Assembly (NCBI GenBank): GCA_017626015.1
Contig: JAGAJO010000001.1
Span: 248,001 to 312,000 of the forward strand
From: Ruminococcus sp.
GTDB lineage: Bacteria > Bacillota > Clostridia > Oscillospirales > Ruminococcaceae
Length of the DNA stretch: 64,000 bases
Direction: 5' to 3'
Shown: positions 1-8,306 of the stretch, piece by piece
How the letters are laid out: each line of letters starts with the position of its first letter
Numbering within the stretch: position 1 is the stretch's first letter
The notes under the pieces: model-generated
What the model was told of the DNA's origin: nothing
Database searches by the model: none
Seen by the model: only the letters and a program-made list of their open reading frames with translations
Program-made: the position numbers and the translations under genes

Positions 1-183
1 GAGTCCTGCGCTGAAAAGAGCGGATCTTTTTTCAAACCACCTTGGCTCGTCAAAGCCGCATACGTTTCCTGCGCAGCCGCCTGCGTCGCAGATGACCACG
101 ATACCTCCAAGCTCGTACAGAACGGCTGCCGCTCCGGAGTTGTCGGGAGCGAAGGGAGAAATATATTTCAAAAGCTTTTTCAA
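1..183 (-). CDS. NifK-like nitrogenase component 1 protein, second copy (partial, 3' end outside window)
   Basis: The first 61 codons are visible and run off the left edge. The start is TTG at 183-181, chosen because an AAGGAGGG site at 193-200 lies 9 bases upstream; it overlaps the stop of the preceding NifD-like gene as TTGA. The N-terminus resembles the complete NifK-like protein at 2232-3389: both have a short Tyr-Glu-(Leu/Met)-Gly-Gly stretch, then a Gly-Cys motif (here Gly-Gly-Cys-Ala-Gly), then Asp-Glu-Pro-Arg-Trp. In nitrogenase-type beta subunits a Cys in this area helps bind the P-cluster-like Fe-S centre. It would pair with the NifD-like protein at 180-1481. Family is supported by paralogy with the complete copy; function is unknown. 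Confidence 0.8.
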   Translation of the reverse strand, partial: MKKLLKYISPFAPDNSGAAAVLYELGGIVVICDAGGCAGNVCGFDEPRWFEKRSALFSAGL

Positions 184-1481
184 CGGTTTGTACCCTCCTT
201 AAAGTCCGTAAGAGCCTTGTCGAGTCTTTCAAACAGTCTGATAACGCCGCAGTAGCCGAAGGGCTGCTCCTCCTCGGAAAATTCTATGCCTGCCTTACCG
301 GCGTGGTAGTAAAGTGCGTCGCTGCCGATAACTGCGTCTATATCCTCTCCGCCGTTATAATAAAGCATGGTCGGGGACAGATTTGAGAAGATCCTTGTTT
401 TCGGGGACAGGCTTGCTATCTTCTTCACGAATACGAAGTTGCGTTCTCCCACGGTGCCGTAGATCTCTGCGACCTTAAAGCCGAAGCGGATAAGAGCGAG
501 GGAAAGTTCAAAGCTGTCGGCGTTGAGACATTCTCCCACCGCAAAGGAAAGACTGCCGTACTTTTCCCTGAAATCCTCCGCCGCCTTTGTTGCTTCACGG
601 TAATATTCGCTGTCGTCAAGCTCTGCGCCGATAGCCTGCCCAAGAAGTCTGTACTGGTTATGTATCTTATCCGGCTGATACATTCTCAGCAGCTCTATAC
701 TCGGCATTCCCAGGGATCTTTCTATTTCCTGAGCGGCATATCTTGCCTCGGGATTAAGAACAAGGCTGAAATTAGCTACGGAGATCTGCGAATATTCTTC
801 AAAGGTTTTGCAGCGGGCAAGCTCGTGGATCTTTTTTATCCCCGCCGATCTGAGCAGCCGGTAGATCTCGCAGCCGTCGTCAAGAGGAGAAAAATATCCC
901 ATGACCGCACATTCGTCGGCAGCTCTTTTCTGTGGTTTCAGCAGAGAATAAACGGACTTTCTCACCGCAGCCATAGGCGGCAGCTTTTTTTCTCTGGTAA
1001 GTGCGTACATATAGCAGGGAACGGCGGGAACACCGGTATATTCCCCGCATCTGCGGCAGACCCTTTCCATATCGGTGCCCAGAAGAGCGTCAACGCAGGT
1101 TATGCATATCATTATTGCCGAAGGCGTATAGTCAAGCTCTTCGCAGATCTCTCTTGCGGCTTCGGGGATCTTTGTAAGATGTCTGCCCGTAACAATGTCG
1201 GTGTCGTCCAGCAGCAGATAAAAAAACCTTTCGTTGTACCCAAGCTCGTTTAGCAGCGCAGTATTTCTTCCGCAGCAGGCAGGGGAGACCAGCAGCATGA
1301 CCGAGCCGGGTATCGCAAGCCCTGCACGTTTTACTCCGAAGCCCTTTGCTCCTGGGGAATTAAACGCCAGCGTTGCAGGTGAGCTGTATATCAGATGCTT
1401 TGCCGACAAAAGCTCCTCGGGGATATTGCTACTTCCCCTTTCTGCAAGCTCCGCCGCAGTTATATAAAAAGCCTTATTCAT
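180..1481 (-). CDS. NifD-like nitrogenase component 1 protein, second copy
   Basis: 433 residues. The start ATG at 1481 was chosen over an upstream in-frame extension because it overlaps the NifH-like stop by 8 bases and has a GAGGGAG site in front. Visible Fe-S ligand candidates are Cys69-Cys70 in a Pro-Ala-Cys-Cys-Gly-Arg-Asn motif and Cys129 in Thr-Cys-(x)5-Gly-Thr-Asp, placed like the NifD P-cluster cysteine near a Gly-Asp-Asp. It shares a Tyr-Ser-Leu-Leu-Lys-Pro segment with the NifD-like protein at 3386-4705, so the two look paralogous. Known relatives of this superfamily reduce N2, protochlorophyllide, Ni-sirohydrochlorin or thioethers. I cannot assign a substrate. Confidence 0.85.
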
Positions 1482-2235
1482 TTTTATCTCCCTCAAGGAG
1501 CTTAAGCGCAAGCTCCGTAAATCTTTTAGCCGCTTCGCACCCGGGCGCTCCCTCAATGACCGTTTTGCCCATATCCTCACATCTTATTATGTCATCGGAA
1601 CGCGGTATGTCCGCAGCGATCTCCAGTCCCGCCTTTTCTGCGAAGGCTCTGACCTTCTGCTCCTCGTTTTCGACGCTGCGGCGGTTGAGAATGATACCTC
1701 TGACCTTGGCATAGCTTCTGTCCTCAAAATTTTTTACGGCGCTGTTTATGTTGTTTGCAGCGTAAAGAGCCATTTTCTCTCCCGAGGTCACGATAAGCAC
1801 GTCTGTGGCATAGCCCTCTCTTATGGGGGCGGCAAAACCTCCGCAGACTACGTCTCCCAGAACGTCGTAAAGTACCACATCGGGGCGGTATTTTTCAAAA
1901 AGCCTCAGATCCTCCAGCAGACTGAAGGTCGTGATTATTCCTCTGCCTGCGCAGCCGAGACCAGGGGTAGGACCTCCCGTTTCGATACACAGTATGCCGC
2001 CGTAGCCGACTTTTGAGATCTCCTCTACCGATCCGGGCTCGTCGTCATGCTCACGCAGATAGTTCATTACCGGGGTAACGGGCGTTCCTCCCAGCAGATT
2101 TATTGTTGAATCCGCCTTGGGGTCGCAGCCTATCTGTATGACCCTTTTTCCCATTTTTGCAAAAGCTGCCGCAAGGTTTGCGGTACAGGTGGATTTTCCT
2201 ATTCCGCCTTTGCCGTAAATCGCTAGTTTTATCAT
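1474..2235 (-). CDS. NifH-like ATP-dependent reductase, second copy
   Basis: 253 residues, slightly shorter than classical NifH. The start ATG at 2235 overlaps the previous stop as ATGA; a longer in-frame ORF exists but it runs through the upstream gene. The P-loop GKGGIGKST is at residues 8-16, followed by the GCDPKADST motif. The two residues that hold the bridging [4Fe-4S] cluster in NifH are present: Cys95 in GLGCAGRG and Cys131 in [10 protein letters not shown]. By family knowledge it would be a homodimer passing electrons to a component 1 protein with ATP hydrolysis; the natural partners are the D and K proteins just downstream. It is homologous to the copy at 4698-5468. Confidence 0.92.
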
Positions 2236-3389
2236 ATATCCTTCTCCTTGAGATTCTCCTTGAGATTTCGGTTTATAAGATCGGGTATGCTTTTTCTGAA
2301 GCATCTTCCCGAGAACGCTTCGCTGGGCAGACTGAAAAATCTGCTTTCCTTCGGGCATATCGGCTTGTAGAGCGGGTCTGCGATAACGCCGTCTATTTCG
2401 TTTTCCGTAAGGGCTGAGCGTATCCCCTTTTCTGCGGATACAGTCAGATCTCCCTCCGCTGCGGCACGTTCGTCATGATCCAGCGGACAGATAACACGGC
2501 TGCTTTTTCCTTTCTCCAGCATTATCGCCGCGGCCAGAGAGCCTGAAAAAACGCTTTCTCCGATGATCTGAAGCCCTTCGCTGTCGGTTTTTCTGTCTGC
2601 GCAGGGGAAAAGGGTAAGTCCCTCCTGAGCGGCTGTCCACAGGCTTTCCGCAAGCCGTGCGGAGAATTTCTTGCCTATGGGTACTCCGCAGACGTAGGGT
2701 ATGCCAAAGCGGGAAAGCATATATTCCGCAGCCGCAATTCCGCAGTGGGATACCACAAGATTTACTCTTGCCGAGTCGGCATTTTTTATTTCCTCCAGGG
2801 TCCCGCCCATACCTATCCTTGAGGAGATCCCGAAGCCGCATTCCGTCAGCCAGTTTTCAATTGATTCCGCCGAGCCGTTTACGGAAAAGTCCAGCGGAGT
2901 AGCTCCCACTATATTAACGCCTATGCCTTTGGTTTTGGGACATTGGGAAACAAACGTCTCCGCAGCGGCTCTGAATGCCTCTGATGCTCCCGCAGTATAG
3001 GAGTGCATACCGTCAGTGTGGAGAGCCAGCGTTTTTATTCCCGAACGGTCTTGTATCTCCCTTGCAATAGCGTCGAAATCGGTGCCTGTCATCATGGGCA
3101 TGGGAGATCCGCATATTGCGATAAACTTCGGATCAAGCTCTGCGGCGGCAGTGCATACGTCGTCTACCAGCCGCTGGTCATTTCCCATTACCGAGTCTAT
3201 TTCCGTCAGACCGGAAATATATATCATGGATCTTTTATCATACCATCTCGGCTCGTCATGGGTGGAATATGTGGAATTGCAGCCCGATGCATCGTGTACA
3301 ACGATCATTCCGCCCATTTCATAAAGAGCCGAGCATACTCCCGCAGTGTCCGCAGCGTAGCATGAAATTATTCTTGCGTAATTTTTCAT
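2232..3389 (-). CDS. NifK-like nitrogenase component 1 protein, first copy
   Basis: 385 residues, shorter than classical NifK. The start at 3389 overlaps the NifD-like stop as ATGA, and the stop overlaps the next NifH-like start in the same way, pointing to translational coupling. Candidate cluster ligands are Cys10, Cys19, Cys37 (Ser-Gly-Cys-Asn) and Cys93 (Ile-Cys-Gly-Ser), with Gly-Thr-Asp 9-11 residues after Cys93, the arrangement seen around the NifK P-cluster cysteine. The C-terminal 40 residues are charged and carry a cysteine in Pro-Ile-Cys-Pro. Substrate unknown; nitrogenase component 1 superfamily membership is the supported claim. Confidence 0.87.
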
Positions 3390-4705
3390 AAGCAGGATTC
3401 ACACCCCAGTCCTTTCAGTCTTATGATCTCCCGCCTTGCTTTGGGATGAAGATATGCGTCTTCCATAAGTCCGGCAAGAGCGCATATTCCCGCAAAGCCG
3501 TAAAATCCACCGCCTGAAACTATGTTCACAAAATAGTCTGTAGCACAGTAGTAAGCTGCCTTCTGACCTACTGCGAGGATCTTTTCTTCCGGTGCAAGCT
3601 CCGGAGCGCATAGCATTTTCGCATTCACAGCCGAACGTATCTCGATATCCGGAAAGTCTTTTTTCAGGCTGTCGAACGCCCCCTTGTCCTCGGGATTTAC
3701 CGAGTCGGCAAAAATGTATCTGACCCGGAATCCGTGTCTGCACAGAAGCTCGGCGAAGCCGAAGGGTCTTGAAACAGCTGTGAAATCCACCGCTACGGCG
3801 GTATCGCCTATAAGCTCCCGTGCGGCTATCAGAGCGTCTTCGGCAGCACGTTCGTCTTCTGAAAGATCGGGAATGCTTATCCCCAGTGTTTTGCACAGCA
3901 GACTGTAATTTCTGCGTATCTCCTCATAGTCAAAGCTGACGGGCAGGTAAAGATGCTTTGTTCCCAGTCTGCGCTCGAGACTGTCTCCAGCAGGCTTTGC
4001 ATTGGGGAGATATGTTATGTTTACTGCGCTTTCAGCCATACTGAGATACTCGTCGTAGGTTTCGCACAGCGTTATATCCCGCAGACGGAGACCCGCTCCT
4101 CTGATGATCTTCACCAGCTCGGAATTTTCATCGGTGGGACGGTCGCACCCTATAATGCTTACCGATCTCGGGTCGGCTGGCAGCGGCTTCAGCAGCGAAT
4201 AGAGCTGCATACGCATTTTTGCGTCGGGCGAGATGGTTTTGCGCATTGTCGGCGCCATATAGCAGTCTGTGAAATCGATATCCGGGAAAAGCTCTCTCAG
4301 ACCAGTAAGGATAGTTTCAAAATCACATCCCGCAAAAAGATGCATACAGCTGAGAAAGATCAGGATCGCTCTGGGCTTTTTGGGAAGCTCTCGAATAATT
4401 TCAGCGGCTCCGTCGATAATGTCCGTTTCAAGCGTTCCCTCGAACATATCTCTTTCCTCCAGAGCTATCCAGCTCATTCTGTCTGCGGCGTTCATTTCGG
4501 CAGCCGTCAGGATAACTCCTCTCAGACAGCCCTGAGCGCAGGCAAAGATCTGATGTGACTGGGGTATGAGCATACCCGTATGAACGATGTTCCATACCCC
4601 TCTGGCGGGGGGGTTGTATTCAAGTCCCGAACGGAAAGGCTCGGGATAAGCGGCGTCCCGGATCTTCACCGCCGCAGGATTTTCTCCGTAAAGATCCTTA
4701 AGCAT
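3386..4705 (-). CDS. NifD-like nitrogenase component 1 protein, first copy
   Basis: 439 residues from ATG 4705, which overlaps the NifH-like stop by 8 bases and lies 8 bases after GGGGGCGG; an in-frame GTG at 4714 is less well placed. Cluster-ligand candidates are Cys56 and Cys60 (Phe-Ala-Cys-Ala-Gln-Gly-Cys) and Cys120 (Ser-Cys-Met-His), in positions comparable to the Fe-S ligands of NifD-type subunits. It resembles the second NifD-like protein (180-1481) in the Cys-Tyr-Met and Tyr-Ser-Leu-Leu-Lys-Pro region but uses a different cysteine pattern. The two D proteins may therefore hold different cofactors or act on different substrates. I could not place equivalents of the FeMo-cofactor ligands. 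Confidence 0.86.
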
Positions 4706-5468
4706 TTTTATCACCGCCCCCGCAGATCCTCAGCACAGTGTCCGCCAGCTCCTCAAACTGCTTTGCGGAAGCGCTTCCGGGGAAAGCCTCAACAACAGTT
4801 ACGCCCTTTTCGTCAGCGAGGGAAATATCCTCGGATCTGTCGATCACACCAATGATATCAGTTTTGAAATCCTCGGCAAGTTCTTTTACCGACTGCTCCT
4901 CGTCCCTGACGTTTCTGCGGTTGAGTATTATTCCTCCCAGTGAAGCGTAGCCTCTTCCCTTGAAGCTTTCCACCGCCATACAGATGTTGGCAGCCGCATA
5001 ACGGGACATTTTTTCTCCTGACGTCACAACGAATACCTTATCGGCAAAGCCCTTTCTCATGGGCATGGAAAATCCTCCGCATACAACGTCGCCAAGCACG
5101 TCGTAAATGACTATATCCGGCTTGTATACCTCGTAGGCTCCCTTTTTCTCCAGTGTTTCCAGCGCTGCGATTATACCTCTTCCTGCGCAGCCAAGTCCCG
5201 GAACGGGACCTCCCGCTTCAACACAGCAGACTCCGCTGCGGCTTTCAGTGACCATATCCGACAGGGAGATCGCATCTCCCCGTTCTCTTATAAGCTCCAG
5301 CACGGTGGGGATCCTGTCTCCTCCGTGGAGCAGTGCGGTGGAATCAGCCTTTGGGTCGCAGCCTATCTGCATTACCTTTAATCCTTTTTTTGCGAAAGCC
5401 GCAGATAGATTGGATGACGAGGTGGATTTTCCGATCCCGCCCTTGCCGTATATTGCAAGCTTTATCAT
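4698..5468 (-). CDS. NifH-like ATP-dependent reductase, first copy
   Basis: 256 residues. The start ATG at 5468 overlaps the hydE stop as ATGA. The P-loop GKGGIGKST is at residues 8-16, GCDPKADST at 36-44, Cys94 in GLGCAGRG and Cys130 in [10 protein letters not shown]; together these give the nucleotide site and the [4Fe-4S] ligands of NifH. It is expected to be a cytosolic homodimer delivering low-potential electrons to the D/K pair encoded next. Its direct coupling to hydE is unusual. A ParA/MinD-type ATPase is excluded by the paired cysteines. Which of the two component 1 pairs it serves cannot be told from sequence. Confidence 0.93.
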
Positions 5469-6523
5469 TTTAATGCCCTCCGTTCCTGCCAGTCTCCTCT
5501 GCCGATAACCAGCTCATATCCTATGGATCTCATTCGCTCCTCCAGACAATGCCTGCATTGAGCCGATTCGTCCCCTGTACATATTTTATTGTCGTACAGC
5601 ATATATTTTTTCCTCACAGCCAGAGGGGAAAGGTTAGGCATGATAACGTTTGCTCCTGCCAGAACCCCTTCCTCCCGTCCTCTGGGATCTATAGTTCCTA
5701 AAGCCGTAGTCGCAGGCAGCAGGACCTCGGGCAGCATTATCCTGCAAAGGCTGAGAAGAAACAGCGTCAGCTTATACGAGCCTGCCGTCTTGTCTCTGAA
5801 GGGAGTGTCCTTATGGGGAATAAAGGGTCCTATGCCTATCATGTGGGGCTGAAACTCCTCAAAGAAAAGCATATCCTTTGCTATACATTCCGCCGTCTGA
5901 TAGGGAGAGCCTACCATAATGCCCGCTCCCGTCTGATAACCCAGGGACTTTAGATCACGCAGGCACTTCATTCTATGCTCCCACGACATTTCGGCAGGGT
6001 GAAGCTTGCCGTAATGCTCCCTGTCGGCAGTTTCGTGTCTAAGTAAATATCTGTCCGCTCCCGCATCACGCAGAAGCTTGTATTCGCCGTATTCAAGCTC
6101 TCCCACGGAAAGGGTAACGGCGCAGTCCGGGTAGGAGAGTTTTATTTTCCTTACGATATCCGCAAGTCTGTCCGATGTAAAGAACGCATCCTCGCCGCTT
6201 TGCAGCACAAAGGTGCGGAACCCAAAGGAATAGCCCTCTGCACAGCATTCAAGTATCTCGTCCTCGGTAAGCCTGTACCGTGAAAGCGCTGTGTTGGATC
6301 TTCTTATGCCGCAGTATAAGCAGTCGTTTCTGCATATATTTGAAAACTCCACAATGCCCCTGATATAAATTTTTCTGCCGAAGATCCCTGTTGAGATATT
6401 TCTCGCTTTTTCGGCTGCATAGGCTCTGTCATCATCGGAGTATTCGGTAAGCAGCCTCACCCAAAGCTCCTTCGGAAGGGATCTTTCAGCGCTGAGCCTG
6501 TCGATAATTTCTCTGTTATTCAT
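5465..6523 (-). CDS. hydE: [FeFe]-hydrogenase maturase HydE-type radical SAM enzyme
   Basis: 352 residues, the normal HydE length. The radical SAM cluster motif is Cys64-x3-Cys68-x2-Cys71 in an Asn-Ile-Cys-Arg-Asn-Asp-Cys context. A second C-terminal set, Cys315-x7-Cys323-x2-Cys326, has the spacing of the auxiliary cluster site of HydE. HydE acts in building the H-cluster di-iron subsite. The start at 6523 overlaps the hydF stop as ATGA and the stop overlaps nifH-like as ATGA, so hydF, hydE and the nitrogenase-like genes are one translational unit. BioB/PylB-type relatives are less likely because of the hydF neighbour and the second cysteine triplet. Confidence 0.92.
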
Positions 6524-7734
6524 ATCTTTTCAGCCTCTGTAAAGCTTTTAAGCTCAGGCAGCATACTTACTGTTCTGCCTAGTATGCCGTTCATATATGC
6601 TATAGCTATGCCATAGTTGGTAAAGGGTACTCCGCTGTCGACCGCAGTTTTCATGCGGTATCTCATTTCCCGTTCGTTGAGCATACAGCCTCCGCAGTGT
6701 ATCACAAGGGAATATTCCGACAGCTCCTCGGGGAAATCACGTCCGGAGGAAAGGGATATCTCAAAGCTTTTACCTGTGAATTTTTTCAGCAGTGCGGGAA
6801 GCTTGACGCTTCCGATATCTCCGCACTGTCTGTGGTGAGTGCAGCCCTCGGATATAAGCACCTTGTCTCCGTCTTTGAGCCGGCTGATCGCTGCGGCTCC
6901 TTCGGCAGCCGTTTTCAGGAAGCCCTTGTATCTTGCCATAAGTATGGAAAACGATGTCAGAGGGATATCCTCGGGAGTATCCCTGCTGACGGCTGCAAAC
7001 GCCTGGCTGTCCGTTATAACGAGAGCGGGCTTTTCTTTAAGTCTGCCGAGCATAGTTTTCAGCTCGGTCTCCCTGACTACTACGGCGCAGGCTCTGCTGT
7101 CAAGAATGTCTCTTAATGTCTGCTGCTGAGGGAGGATAAGTCTGCCCTTCGGAGCAGCGAGATCGATAGGGGTGACAAGAACAACAGTGTCCTCCGCATT
7201 TATAAGATCTCCCACAATACGTTTGTCACGGTCTGACTGCTTTATTATGCGGGCGATCTTTTCTCTCAGCTCGTTTATGTTGAAATTATTCTTTGCACTT
7301 ACATATATTTCATTATCCGCAGCTTCGGGAGGAGTCTCCGTCAGGTCGCATTTGCTGCGGGCAACGATATACGGTATCTCCTTGCTTTCAAAAAGAGAAA
7401 TAAGCTCCTTCTCGCATTCGCCAAGCTCCGAGGAGGAGTCGGCAACAAGGACTGCTGCGTCGGTGCGGTTAAGGACCTGCTTTGTCCGTCTGACCCGCAT
7501 TTCACCCAGTTCTCCCACATCGTCGTAGCCGGGGGTGTCGATAATGACCACAGGTCCCATAGGGAGAATTTCCATAGCCTTTACGACCGGGTCGGTGGTA
7601 GTTCCTGCCGTGTCGGAAACCACCGCAAGCTCCTGATTTGTTACCGCATTGACGATACTGGATTTTCCCGCATTGCGTCTGCCGAAAAATCCGATGTGAA
7701 CTCTGTCGCCGGACGGCATATCGTTAAGTCCCAT
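6520..7734 (-). CDS. hydF: [FeFe]-hydrogenase maturation GTPase HydF
   Basis: 404 residues from ATG 7734, chosen because AAGGAGG lies just upstream; an in-frame extension to 7848 has no support. The N-terminal GTPase domain shows the P-loop at residues 18-25 (Gly-Arg-Arg-Asn-Ala-Gly-Lys-Ser) and Asp-Thr-Pro-Gly-Tyr-Asp-Asp. The C-terminal scaffold domain has Cys298-x-His300 and, 45 residues on, His346-Cys347-x2-Cys350, the CxH...HCxxC signature of the HydF [4Fe-4S] site. HydF carries the di-iron subcluster and hands it to apo-hydrogenase. It heads the hydF-hydE-nifHDK-like block. Confidence 0.94.
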   Translation of the reverse strand: MGLNDMPSGDRVHIGFFGRRNAGKSSIVNAVTNQELAVVSDTAGTTTDPVVKAMEILPMGPVVIIDTPGYDDVGELGEMRVRRTKQVLNRTDAAVLVADSSSELGECEKELISLFESKEIPYIVARSKCDLTETPPEAADNEIYVSAKNNFNINELREKIARIIKQSDRDKRIVGDLINAEDTVVLVTPIDLAAPKGRLILPQQQTLRDILDSRACAVVVRETELKTMLGRLKEKPALVITDSQAFAAVSRDTPEDIPLTSFSILMARYKGFLKTAAEGAAAISRLKDGDKVLISEGCTHHRQCGDIGSVKLPALLKKFTGKSFEISLSSGRDFPEELSEYSLVIHCGGCMLNEREMRYRMKTAVDSGVPFTNYGIAIAYMNGILGRTVSMLPELKSFTEAEKI

Positions 7735-7759
7735 TTTATTTTCCTCCTTCATTATAAAT

Positions 7760-7799
7760 AAAAAAGCACAGATCATCTCCTCCGAGGATATGACTGTGC
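7760..7799 (-). terminator. Terminator-like hairpin in front of hydF (possible attenuator)
   Basis: On the minus strand a stem GCACAG/CTGTGC at 7794-7799 and 7766-7771, extended by further pairing (TCAT/ATGA and CCTC/GAGG), is followed by a run of T at 7760-7765. It lies about 25 bases upstream of the hydF start codon and downstream of the TM1266-type gene, in the direction of transcription. It may end part of the transcripts or act as a regulated attenuator. The base pairing is seen directly; the role is inference. Confidence 0.6.
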
Positions 7800-7905
7800 A
7801 TATAAACGCATTTATGCGAAACCGCATTTTCAGCGTCAGACTTATCATACTTCCGCCTCAAAAAAATTTTGGCGTCAGGAGATATTTATTTGATATTCTG
7901 TTTTC

Positions 7906-8068
7906 AAGGCAACACCGCACAGAGATTGTGCGGCAGATGCGCAGTCAGATTTTTCGTCAGATTGTACAGAAACGACGCAGGAATACTGTCGTATTTCAAG
8001 GAGTTTCTGCGCGATATGACGGAAAAGAAGCAAGCAGATGACGTGCAATCTCTGTGCGGTGTTGCCTT
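7906..8068. repeat. MITE-like palindromic repeat, family B copy 1
   Basis: A 163-base element with perfect 23-base terminal inverted repeats (7906-7928 and 8046-8068) beginning AAGGCAACACCGCAC. The inner part contains GTCAGATT, CGACGCAGG and GATATGACGGAAAA blocks shared with the copy at 60419-60618. Its right end overlaps the TAA stop of the TM1266-type gene (8067-8069). It encodes no transposase. It fills most of the space between that gene and hydF. Confidence 0.85.
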
Positions 8069-8306
8069 AATAATACAGCGTTTTTGCCGTTACGTCCTCC
8101 AGCCTGCCTATTTTTCCCGCCAGGCTGTTTATTTTATCCTGCGGGGCGTCTATAGCCACGCTTATGATATTCACTCCCCTGTTTCTATAGGGAACGCCCA
8201 TTCGTCCGATTATATATTCGCCGTATTCGTGCAGAACGGAGTTTATTTTTTCCGCCGACCGGCTGCCTTCGGCTATTATAGCTATTACCGCCACTCTGGT
8301 TTCCAT
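8067..8306 (-). CDS. TM1266-family putative iron-only hydrogenase system regulator
   Basis: 79 residues, matching in length and pattern the small ACT-like proteins annotated as iron-only hydrogenase system regulator (TM1266 family), which are commonly found with hydE/hydF/hydG. Supporting stretches are Arg-Val-Ala-Val-Ile at the N-terminus, the His-Glu-Tyr-Gly-Glu-Tyr-Ile centre and the Ile-Ser-Val-Ala-Ile-Asp-Ala-Pro strand. A GGAGG site precedes ATG 8306, and a consensus promoter lies at 8350-8378. It is probably the first gene of the hydFE-nifHDK-like transcript, separated from hydF by a family B repeat whose end overlaps its stop codon. Actual regulatory activity is not established by the sequence. 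Confidence 0.8.
   Translation of the reverse strand: METRVAVIAIIAEGSRSAEKINSVLHEYGEYIIGRMGVPYRNRGVNIISVAIDAPQDKINSLAGKIGRLEDVTAKTLYY

Follow-up and report, generated by a model that had tools for sequence, protein, structure and literature searches.

A nitrogenase-like and Hyp gene cluster as a probable HydG-independent route to the H-cluster in Ruminococcus and other bacteria

All five CO and CN ligands of the H-cluster are, as far as is known, made by HydG alone. In the HydEFG maturation system this enzyme makes an Fe(CO)2(CN)(Cys) complex that is taken by HydE (PMC11736057), and in a [NiFe] enzyme carbamoyl phosphate gives rise to CN but not to CO, as stated in the title of a paper cited in PMC7460606. 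Here we describe a gene cluster of rumen and gut bacteria in which maturation genes of both hydrogenase classes are joined to two sets of nitrogenase-like genes. It begins in a 64,000-nucleotide stretch of DNA from Ruminococcus sp. (GenBank assembly GCA_017626015.1, contig JAGAJO010000001.1, positions 248,001 to 312,000 of the forward strand; hereafter the window), and it occurs in genomes from which HydG is missing. Judged from these sequences, the cluster is probably a HydG-independent route to the H-cluster.

Compared with the HydEFG system, this locus shares HydE, HydF and a TM1266-type protein, all scoring above curated cut-offs. HydG is absent, and two reductases, each a set of NifH-, NifD- and NifK-like proteins (HDK; modules 1 and 2), appear to stand in for it together with HypF, HypC, HypD and HypE, or in a second version of the cluster one such reductase and an importer. 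The genes of the window's genome are listed below in window coordinates, with contig coordinates for those outside.

8067..8306, minus strand: TM1266-type putative regulator of the [FeFe]-hydrogenase system (TIGR03959, 108 bits, cut-off 60.8)
6520..7734, minus strand: HydF, H-cluster scaffold GTPase (TIGR03918, 561 bits, cut-off 325.6)
5465..6523, minus strand: HydE, radical SAM maturase (TIGR03956, 556.8 bits, cut-off 254.6)
4698..5468, minus strand: H1, NifH-like ATP-dependent reductase of module 1 (PF00142)
3386..4714, minus strand: D1, nitrogenase component-1-like subunit of module 1 (PF00148, 69.5 bits)
2232..3389, minus strand: K1, nitrogenase component-1-like subunit of module 1 (PF00148, 116 bits)
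1474..2235, minus strand: H2, NifH-like ATP-dependent reductase of module 2 (PF00142)
180..1481, minus strand: D2, component-1-like subunit of module 2 (PF00148, 87 bits)
1..183, minus strand: 5' part of K2, component-1-like subunit of module 2 (Oxidored_nitro Pfam match over cut-off)
Outside the window, 3' of K2, same strand: hypF (TIGR00143, 735 bits)
C9:244574-244783, after hypF, same strand: hypC, small
C9:243534-244577, after hypC, same strand: hypD (TIGR00075, 396 bits)
G000:C9:241157-243504, closely after hypD: mtnA and a 5'-deoxyadenosine-deaminase-like gene

In the assembly behind the window, K2 runs past the window edge to a complete protein of 350 aa (G000:C9:247131-248183) and continues into hypFCD, so that the genes seen in the window are part of a longer run, TM1266-hydF-hydE-H1D1K1-H2D2K2-hypFCD, with maturation genes of both hydrogenase classes; hypE lies on a separate contig. 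From hydF through K2 each junction is an overlap of 4 to 17 bases between adjoining frames. The initial annotation of the window had described this one-strand order with its overlapping junctions, along with intact motifs, and on both counts it was correct: HydE has its CxxxCxxC motif, HydF its GRRNAGKS P-loop and C-terminal cysteines, H1 its cysteines C94 and C130, and H2 a P-loop with C95 and C131. The decisive facts, namely the Hyp genes beyond the window and the absence of HydG, were not part of it.

No HydG scores over the cut-off in the window's own genome, where the only match is a cross-match of HydE at E 8e-16. The same holds in every genome searched that has a strong D1 or K1 match. 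Within a family sample of 157 genomes searched for K1, HydG, HydE and HypE, K1 gave 26 matches at E <= 0.001. The 13 strong ones (E below 1e-27, one a truncated gene; the next stands at 7e-18) define the K1-positive genomes, and the 13 weaker than E 1e-17 were excluded. HydG is over the cut-off in 0 of these 13 genomes and in 64 of the 144 others, and HydE in all 13. Among the 75 HydE-positive genomes of the family, the 13 with K1 thus have no HydG, whereas 60 of the 62 without K1 have it; the two exceptions are G049, in which HydG is in pieces, and G016, a genome that is 55% complete. Fisher's test, relatedness ignored, gives p = 8e-13 with HydE held present and 9e-4 without this restriction. 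In a phylum sample of 398 genomes, with strong D1 set at E below 1e-140 and HydG counted at E <= 1e-80, HydG is found in 0 of 10 strong-D1 genomes and in 213 of 388 others (p 4e-4). Finally, a D1 profile search of a genome collection returned 445 candidate loci, of which 80 were kept; in the 50 genomes searched through these loci (30, mostly short contigs, were left out) HydG is over the cut-off in none. The three sets overlap slightly. Two-contig G113, one-contig G585, Clostridium carboxidivorans P7 and Ruminococcus bicirculans 80/3, the last two from records titled complete, also lack HydG, and we therefore rejected incomplete assembly as the cause of its absence. Within one genus (g36) both states occur: G035 carries the cluster without HydG, and G143 has TM1266-HydE-HydG without a K1 match. 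The backbone of the HydE tree is weakly supported, and the number of swaps between HydG and the cluster cannot be read from it.

The reductases resemble several described enzymes without joining any family tested. H1 and H2 fall below the NifH, CfbC, BchL and BchX model cut-offs, and the D and K proteins pass only the general Pfam component-1 family, whose sole matches in the whole genome are D1, K1, D2 and K2. With CfbCD, the reductive cyclase of coenzyme F430 synthesis, the likeness lies in H1, whose top model is CfbC (309.6 bits), yet this is below the cut-off of 402, and CfbD scores are low (28 bits for K1 against a cut-off of 268, 16 for D2, no listed match for D1). Dark-operative protochlorophyllide oxidoreductase (DPOR, BchLNB) and chlorophyllide a oxidoreductase (COR, BchXYZ) share the H plus DK architecture, the lack of FeMo-cofactor ligands and fewer cluster cysteines than nitrogenase; in contrast, the present proteins lie far below the Bch cut-offs and separate from Bch in the tree, with no chlorophyll gene noted alongside. 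In that tree each of the two modules is a clade of its own (module 1, 100/100 for D and 99/98 for K; module 2, 100/99 and 100/100), and both are nested among other HDK clusters and apart from the Nif and Bch rows, with an HDK of Sporomusa outside; the 22 D rows and 22 K rows are each set apart from Bch at 100/99 and 100/100. The initial annotation would have been refuted by a place inside a characterised clade; as far as the curated cut-offs and a tree with Nif and Bch rows, but none of Cfb or Mar, can show, the proteins lie outside such clades. D1 has only distant matches among solved structures, the best being NifE at 8e-9. The best solved relative of H1 is 9fmg_D, listed as 'Nitrogenase iron protein', which we take to be the iron protein of methylthio-alkane reductase (Mar).

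In a low-identity alignment to NifDK, with the Sporomusa rows left out of the count, the P-cluster cysteines equivalent to NifD C88 and C154 and NifK C95 are kept, whereas those equivalent to NifD C62 and NifK C70 and C153 are not. In the same alignment the FeMo-cofactor positions are not kept either, the equivalent of NifD Cys275 being variable and that of His442 being Val, Ile or Leu; for both clusters the ligand numbering is that of NifD and NifK. The component 1 cysteines reported by the initial annotation are present in the window's proteins, as C59, C63 and C123 in D1, C69 and C128 in D2 and the invariant C37 in K1, with C59 an invariant D cysteine added by module 1. With three P-cluster cysteines retained and no FeMo-cofactor ligands, D and K have the look of [4Fe-4S] reductases that belong to none of the curated families tested. 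DPOR has one [4Fe-4S] cluster, and by analogy a single such cluster passing electrons to a bound substrate would fit the pattern. A nitrogen-fixing or cofactor-scaffold role was rejected, because the FeMo-cofactor ligands are missing and the genome has no further PF00148 match, as was membership of Bch or Cfb, on the model cut-offs and, for Bch, the tree.

The initial annotation had offered two readings of the coupled genes as one uncharacterised system. Its suggestion that the nitrogenase-like enzymes provide a reductive step for H-cluster assembly is the best-supported reading; the converse, that the maturases supply a metal centre to the HDK proteins, finds no support, as D and K lack the FeMo-cofactor ligand positions and HydE and HydF match standard maturases.

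The Hyp proteins have intact catalytic residues (the HypE C-terminal PRIC in 7/7, the second-residue cysteine of HypC), from which formation of cyanide from carbamoyl phosphate is to be expected. In having HypF, HypC, HypD and HypE with these residues the cluster is like the HypABCDEF system of [NiFe]-hydrogenase maturation. Unlike that system, its Hyp genes are tied to nitrogenase-like genes and mostly lack a client: no match to a [NiFe] large subunit was found in the window's genome or in 57 of 63 genome handles (about 61 genomes; G182 and G186 share coordinates with G035 and G065), the other six having clear matches in three Clostridium and partial ones (E 1e-13 to 1e-15) in three others. 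A further difference lies in HypD, which in the cluster forms one clade of 16 of the 27 tree rows (100/99), apart from 11 other HypDs that include second copies in C. carboxidivorans, G350, G430 and G524. This dedicated clade has extra conserved cysteines, C140 and C233 in 14/14 rows and C257 in 13/14; the other HypDs have alanine at 140 in 10/10, and cysteine at 233 in one and at 257 in one. The cluster's Hyp set does not look as if it serves [NiFe] enzymes, and on the 57 handles without a large-subunit match that role was rejected.

The arrangement is not confined to one strain, which would have refuted the initial annotation, but recurs in many genomes that by record title belong to three phyla. 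Going by the same titles, the D1 loci have hosts that include Ruminococcus albus 8, KH2T6 and AR67, R. bicirculans 80/3, Lentisphaeria, a spirochaete, and Clostridium ljungdahlii, C. carboxidivorans and C. muellerianum, and the tandem arrangement recurs in Ruminococcus, Lentisphaeria, the spirochaete and Clostridium. Flanks are nearly full (at least 21.2 kb) at 37 loci, and at 36 of these H2, D2, K2 and HypF accompany H1D1K1, the exception being of the importer version; within the same flanks TM1266 is found in 35, HypC and HypD in 33, HydE in 28, HypE in 27 and HydF in 19. Across all 80 loci, many of them truncated, HydE stands beside H1D1K1 in 59 and TM1266 in 66. The order varies: Clostridium has H2D2K2-hypFCDE-H1D1K1, and in G524 the two modules are on different contigs. 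Three genomes (L170, L171, L175) encode a natural D2-K2 fusion of 791-870 residues, a ready substrate for structural work.

In the importer version H1D1K1 occurs without module 2 and with a FecBCD-type importer comprising a FecCD permease, an ABC ATPase and a periplasmic-binding lipoprotein. All three parts are present in 10 of the 10 such clusters examined, with one cluster divided between two contigs; eight of the clusters include HydE and five HydF, and in seven a TM1266 domain follows the importer ATPase in frame. The Hyp genes go with module 2: HypE is present in 5/5 two-module family genomes and in 0/8 other K1 genomes, and HypD in all 15 two-module genomes searched; of 11 genomes in which no module 2 was seen, 10 have no HypD match and the remaining one (G521) has a Hyp set elsewhere. 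The last count includes G022, a K1-positive genome with a truncated contig that was assigned to neither version. The simplest reading of this swap between module 2 and the importer is that the module-2 product or an equivalent is either made or imported.

A model for how the cluster might work is as follows. In module 2, formed by H2D2K2 with HypF, HypC, HypD and HypE, HypF and HypE would convert carbamoyl phosphate to cyanide and attach this to the iron that HypC-HypD carries, as happens when [NiFe]-hydrogenases mature. Carbamoyl phosphate would give the CN and not the CO, which needs another source, and a low-potential reductase driven by ATP and standing next to HypCD is a natural choice. 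A nitrogenase Fe protein reduces CO2 to CO; H2D2K2, an ATP-driven reductase, may supply or generate CO, for example from CO2, or may instead reduce the bound iron complex. After this, module 1, also an ATP-driven [4Fe-4S] reductase, would reshape the product into an iron-CO-CN unit for HydE that stands in for the tyrosine-derived Fe(CO)2(CN)(Cys) synthon of HydG; being common to both versions, it probably acts last, before HydE. From there HydE and HydF would complete the cluster and hand it over in their usual way. In the importer version the module-2 product, or an equivalent iron complex, would probably be taken up from outside. The model is least certain about the cargo of the importer and about the module responsible for CO. 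It is a speculative and rather doubtful extension that module-2 bacteria make a stable iron-cyanide-carbonyl complex which relatives in the same gut import through their dedicated FecBCD system with its TM1266-ATPase fusion. If it is true, the importer version is a salvage route for an organometallic part of the H-cluster, and an H-cluster precursor is a shared nutrient.

Several points weigh against H-cluster assembly by this HydG-independent route. That the H-cluster is the product we infer from genomes alone, many of them metagenome-assembled, and since the genomes are related the Fisher values are too optimistic, overstating independence. HydE was searched genome-wide in the family sample only, and HydF genome-wide in none. 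The flank counts for HydE (28/37), HydF (19/37), HypC and HypD (33/37) and HypE (27/37) mean that the operon is often scattered, with outer genes elsewhere. The importer version, without HypD in 10 of 11 genomes, leaves the source of CO and CN unexplained unless such a source is imported. Eight phylum genomes have only distant relatives of D1, and because six of these carry HydG the wider family has another function. HydA-like proteins are a weak marker of H-cluster use, as PF02906 matches are found in 153/157 family genomes, 75 of which have neither HydE nor HydG over the cut-off. The hydrogen data for R. albus concern strain 7, and the cluster was seen in strains 8, KH2T6 and AR67. Lastly, PMC9431212 assigns a HydG to C. 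autoethanogenum, C. drakei and C. scatologenes, all with HypCDEF; the cluster together with a true HydG in any of these would be an exception.

The strongest competing explanation, which we consider unlikely, is that HDK and Hyp proteins build a separate, new iron-CO-CN cofactor, that hydE and hydF adjoin them by chance or for reasons of iron economy, and that HydG was lost otherwise, HydE and HydF making do with diffusible CO and cyanide. The cluster has no gene for a target enzyme, HydE lies outside the flanks in 9 of the 37 nearly full loci, and weak in vitro activation without HydG is mentioned, at second hand, in PMC9431212. That quoted activity is, however, about 1% of normal, the exclusion of HydG is complete in the genomes searched, and H1D1K1 has HydE beside it in 59 and TM1266 in 66 of the 80 loci, many of them truncated, and HydE in eight of ten importer clusters.

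It is distinctly improbable that the Hyp proteins serve a [NiFe]-hydrogenase while the HDK proteins are iron-chelate reductases, linked to hydEF merely as neighbours. Related HDK clusters do adjoin FecCD-type importers (FecBCD) in 7 of 8 phylum loci, G221 being the exception, and on a Treponema plasmid, a distant Sporomusa plasmid HDK has a siderophore receptor and esterase, and three Clostridium genomes have a [NiFe] enzyme. Against this stand the 57 of 63 handles without a large-subunit match, the second, different HypD in C. carboxidivorans and three phylum genomes, and the joint presence of H2D2K2 and HypF in 36 of 37 nearly full loci. These sister clusters (L159-L161, L163-L166 and L176, the last on Treponema plasmid pTS1) belong to the same protein family as modules 1 and 2; they differ in that no HydE or HydF was seen alongside and in the HydG of 6/8 host genomes. 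The more distant HDK on Sporomusa plasmid pSPTER (L179) also has TonB siderophore receptors with the esterase. The sister family, of which we found no description in the open-licence papers searched, might act as ferric-siderophore reductases driven by ATP.

There is little to recommend the notion that HydG is present in divergent form, as an unrecognised tyrosine lyase or a ThiH-type protein. An atypical radical SAM protein has been proposed as HydG in several acetogens (PMC9431212), and 26 of the 50 locus-reached genomes have a match to the HydG model stronger than 1e-50, below the cut-off, which we take to be ThiH. In the other 24 the model never matches more strongly than E 1e-25, that is, not beyond the level of HydE, so these genomes probably have no ThiH-type tyrosine lyase either; moreover, such a protein would leave the Hyp and HDK genes unexplained.

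MarHDK, the methylthio-alkane reductase, shares the nitrogen-fixation-like HDK set, and its metal centres are a P-cluster and an [Fe8S9C] cluster (PMC12552129). That the present HDKs are methylthio-alkane reductases of methylthioadenosine salvage is scarcely credible: mtnA and the deaminase-like gene do follow hypD closely in this genome, but MtnA and the deaminase, used as references, were not seen in the mapped loci of relatives, and the P-cluster and [Fe8S9C] ligand positions of Mar are not kept in D and K, as aligned to NifDK. More simply, mtnA and the deaminase could salvage 5'-deoxyadenosine freed by HydE.

Returning to a HydG-independent assembly of the H-cluster, such a pathway would combine two nitrogenase-like reductases with parts of the [NiFe] system. 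We recognised no description of the cluster in the literature searched, which consisted of open-licence papers only. It bears on an earlier report in which hydG was not found in five of eight clostridial acetogens, the authors giving no straightforward explanation; the same paper reports HypCDEF and not HypAB in C. ljungdahlii, and two sets of HypC, HypD and HypE in C. carboxidivorans (PMC9431212). The cluster is present in both of these hydG-less species (for C. ljungdahlii in ERI-2, a different strain from that of PMC9431212) and would explain both the missing hydG and the Hyp findings in them. R. albus 7 forms 2.6-4 H2 per glucose with three [FeFe]-hydrogenases, and nitrogenase genes occur in 23% of rumen genomes although rumen N2 fixation is negligible (PMC6776011); a part of the rumen nifH-type genes could belong to this cluster. 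If the proposed route is real, a second pathway to the H-cluster exists in major rumen cellulose degraders and industrial acetogens, the origin of CO in anaerobic Hyp chemistry becomes testable with H2D2K2 as a concrete candidate, and a tyrosine-free way to active hydrogenases could be on offer.

The HydA-like proteins of the family differ at the first H-cluster motif. TSCSPGW, as against TSCCPGW, is found in 6/6 checked genomes without HydE and HydG, and in the best copy of 6/6 importer-version genomes and 5/5 HydG genomes; TSCCP is found in 7/7 two-module genomes checked and in the window's own genome. Further proteins of importer-version genomes have TSSCCPAF (G040) and TSCCCPMW (G032). The TSCSPGW proteins are widespread in the family (L192-L197, L198-L212), and they may not all be H-cluster hydrogenases. 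One genome of 0.9 Mb (G087) has HydE and HydG over the cut-off and no PF02906 match.

Some neighbouring features were seen at single loci. A sigma-54 gene directly follows hydF in L172 and lies one gene further on in L169. In an importer-type genome a Lyase_1 gene (Pfam; L043:10617-11957) overlaps the 3' end of hydF, which agrees with the published association of hyd operons with ammonia lyases (PMC11736057). In the window itself, the 332 bp gap between the TM1266 gene and hydF is accompanied by an inverted repeat at 7901-8073, with arms of 40 bases (7901-7940 and 8034-8073) that are 83% complementary; it looks like a small mobile or structured element.

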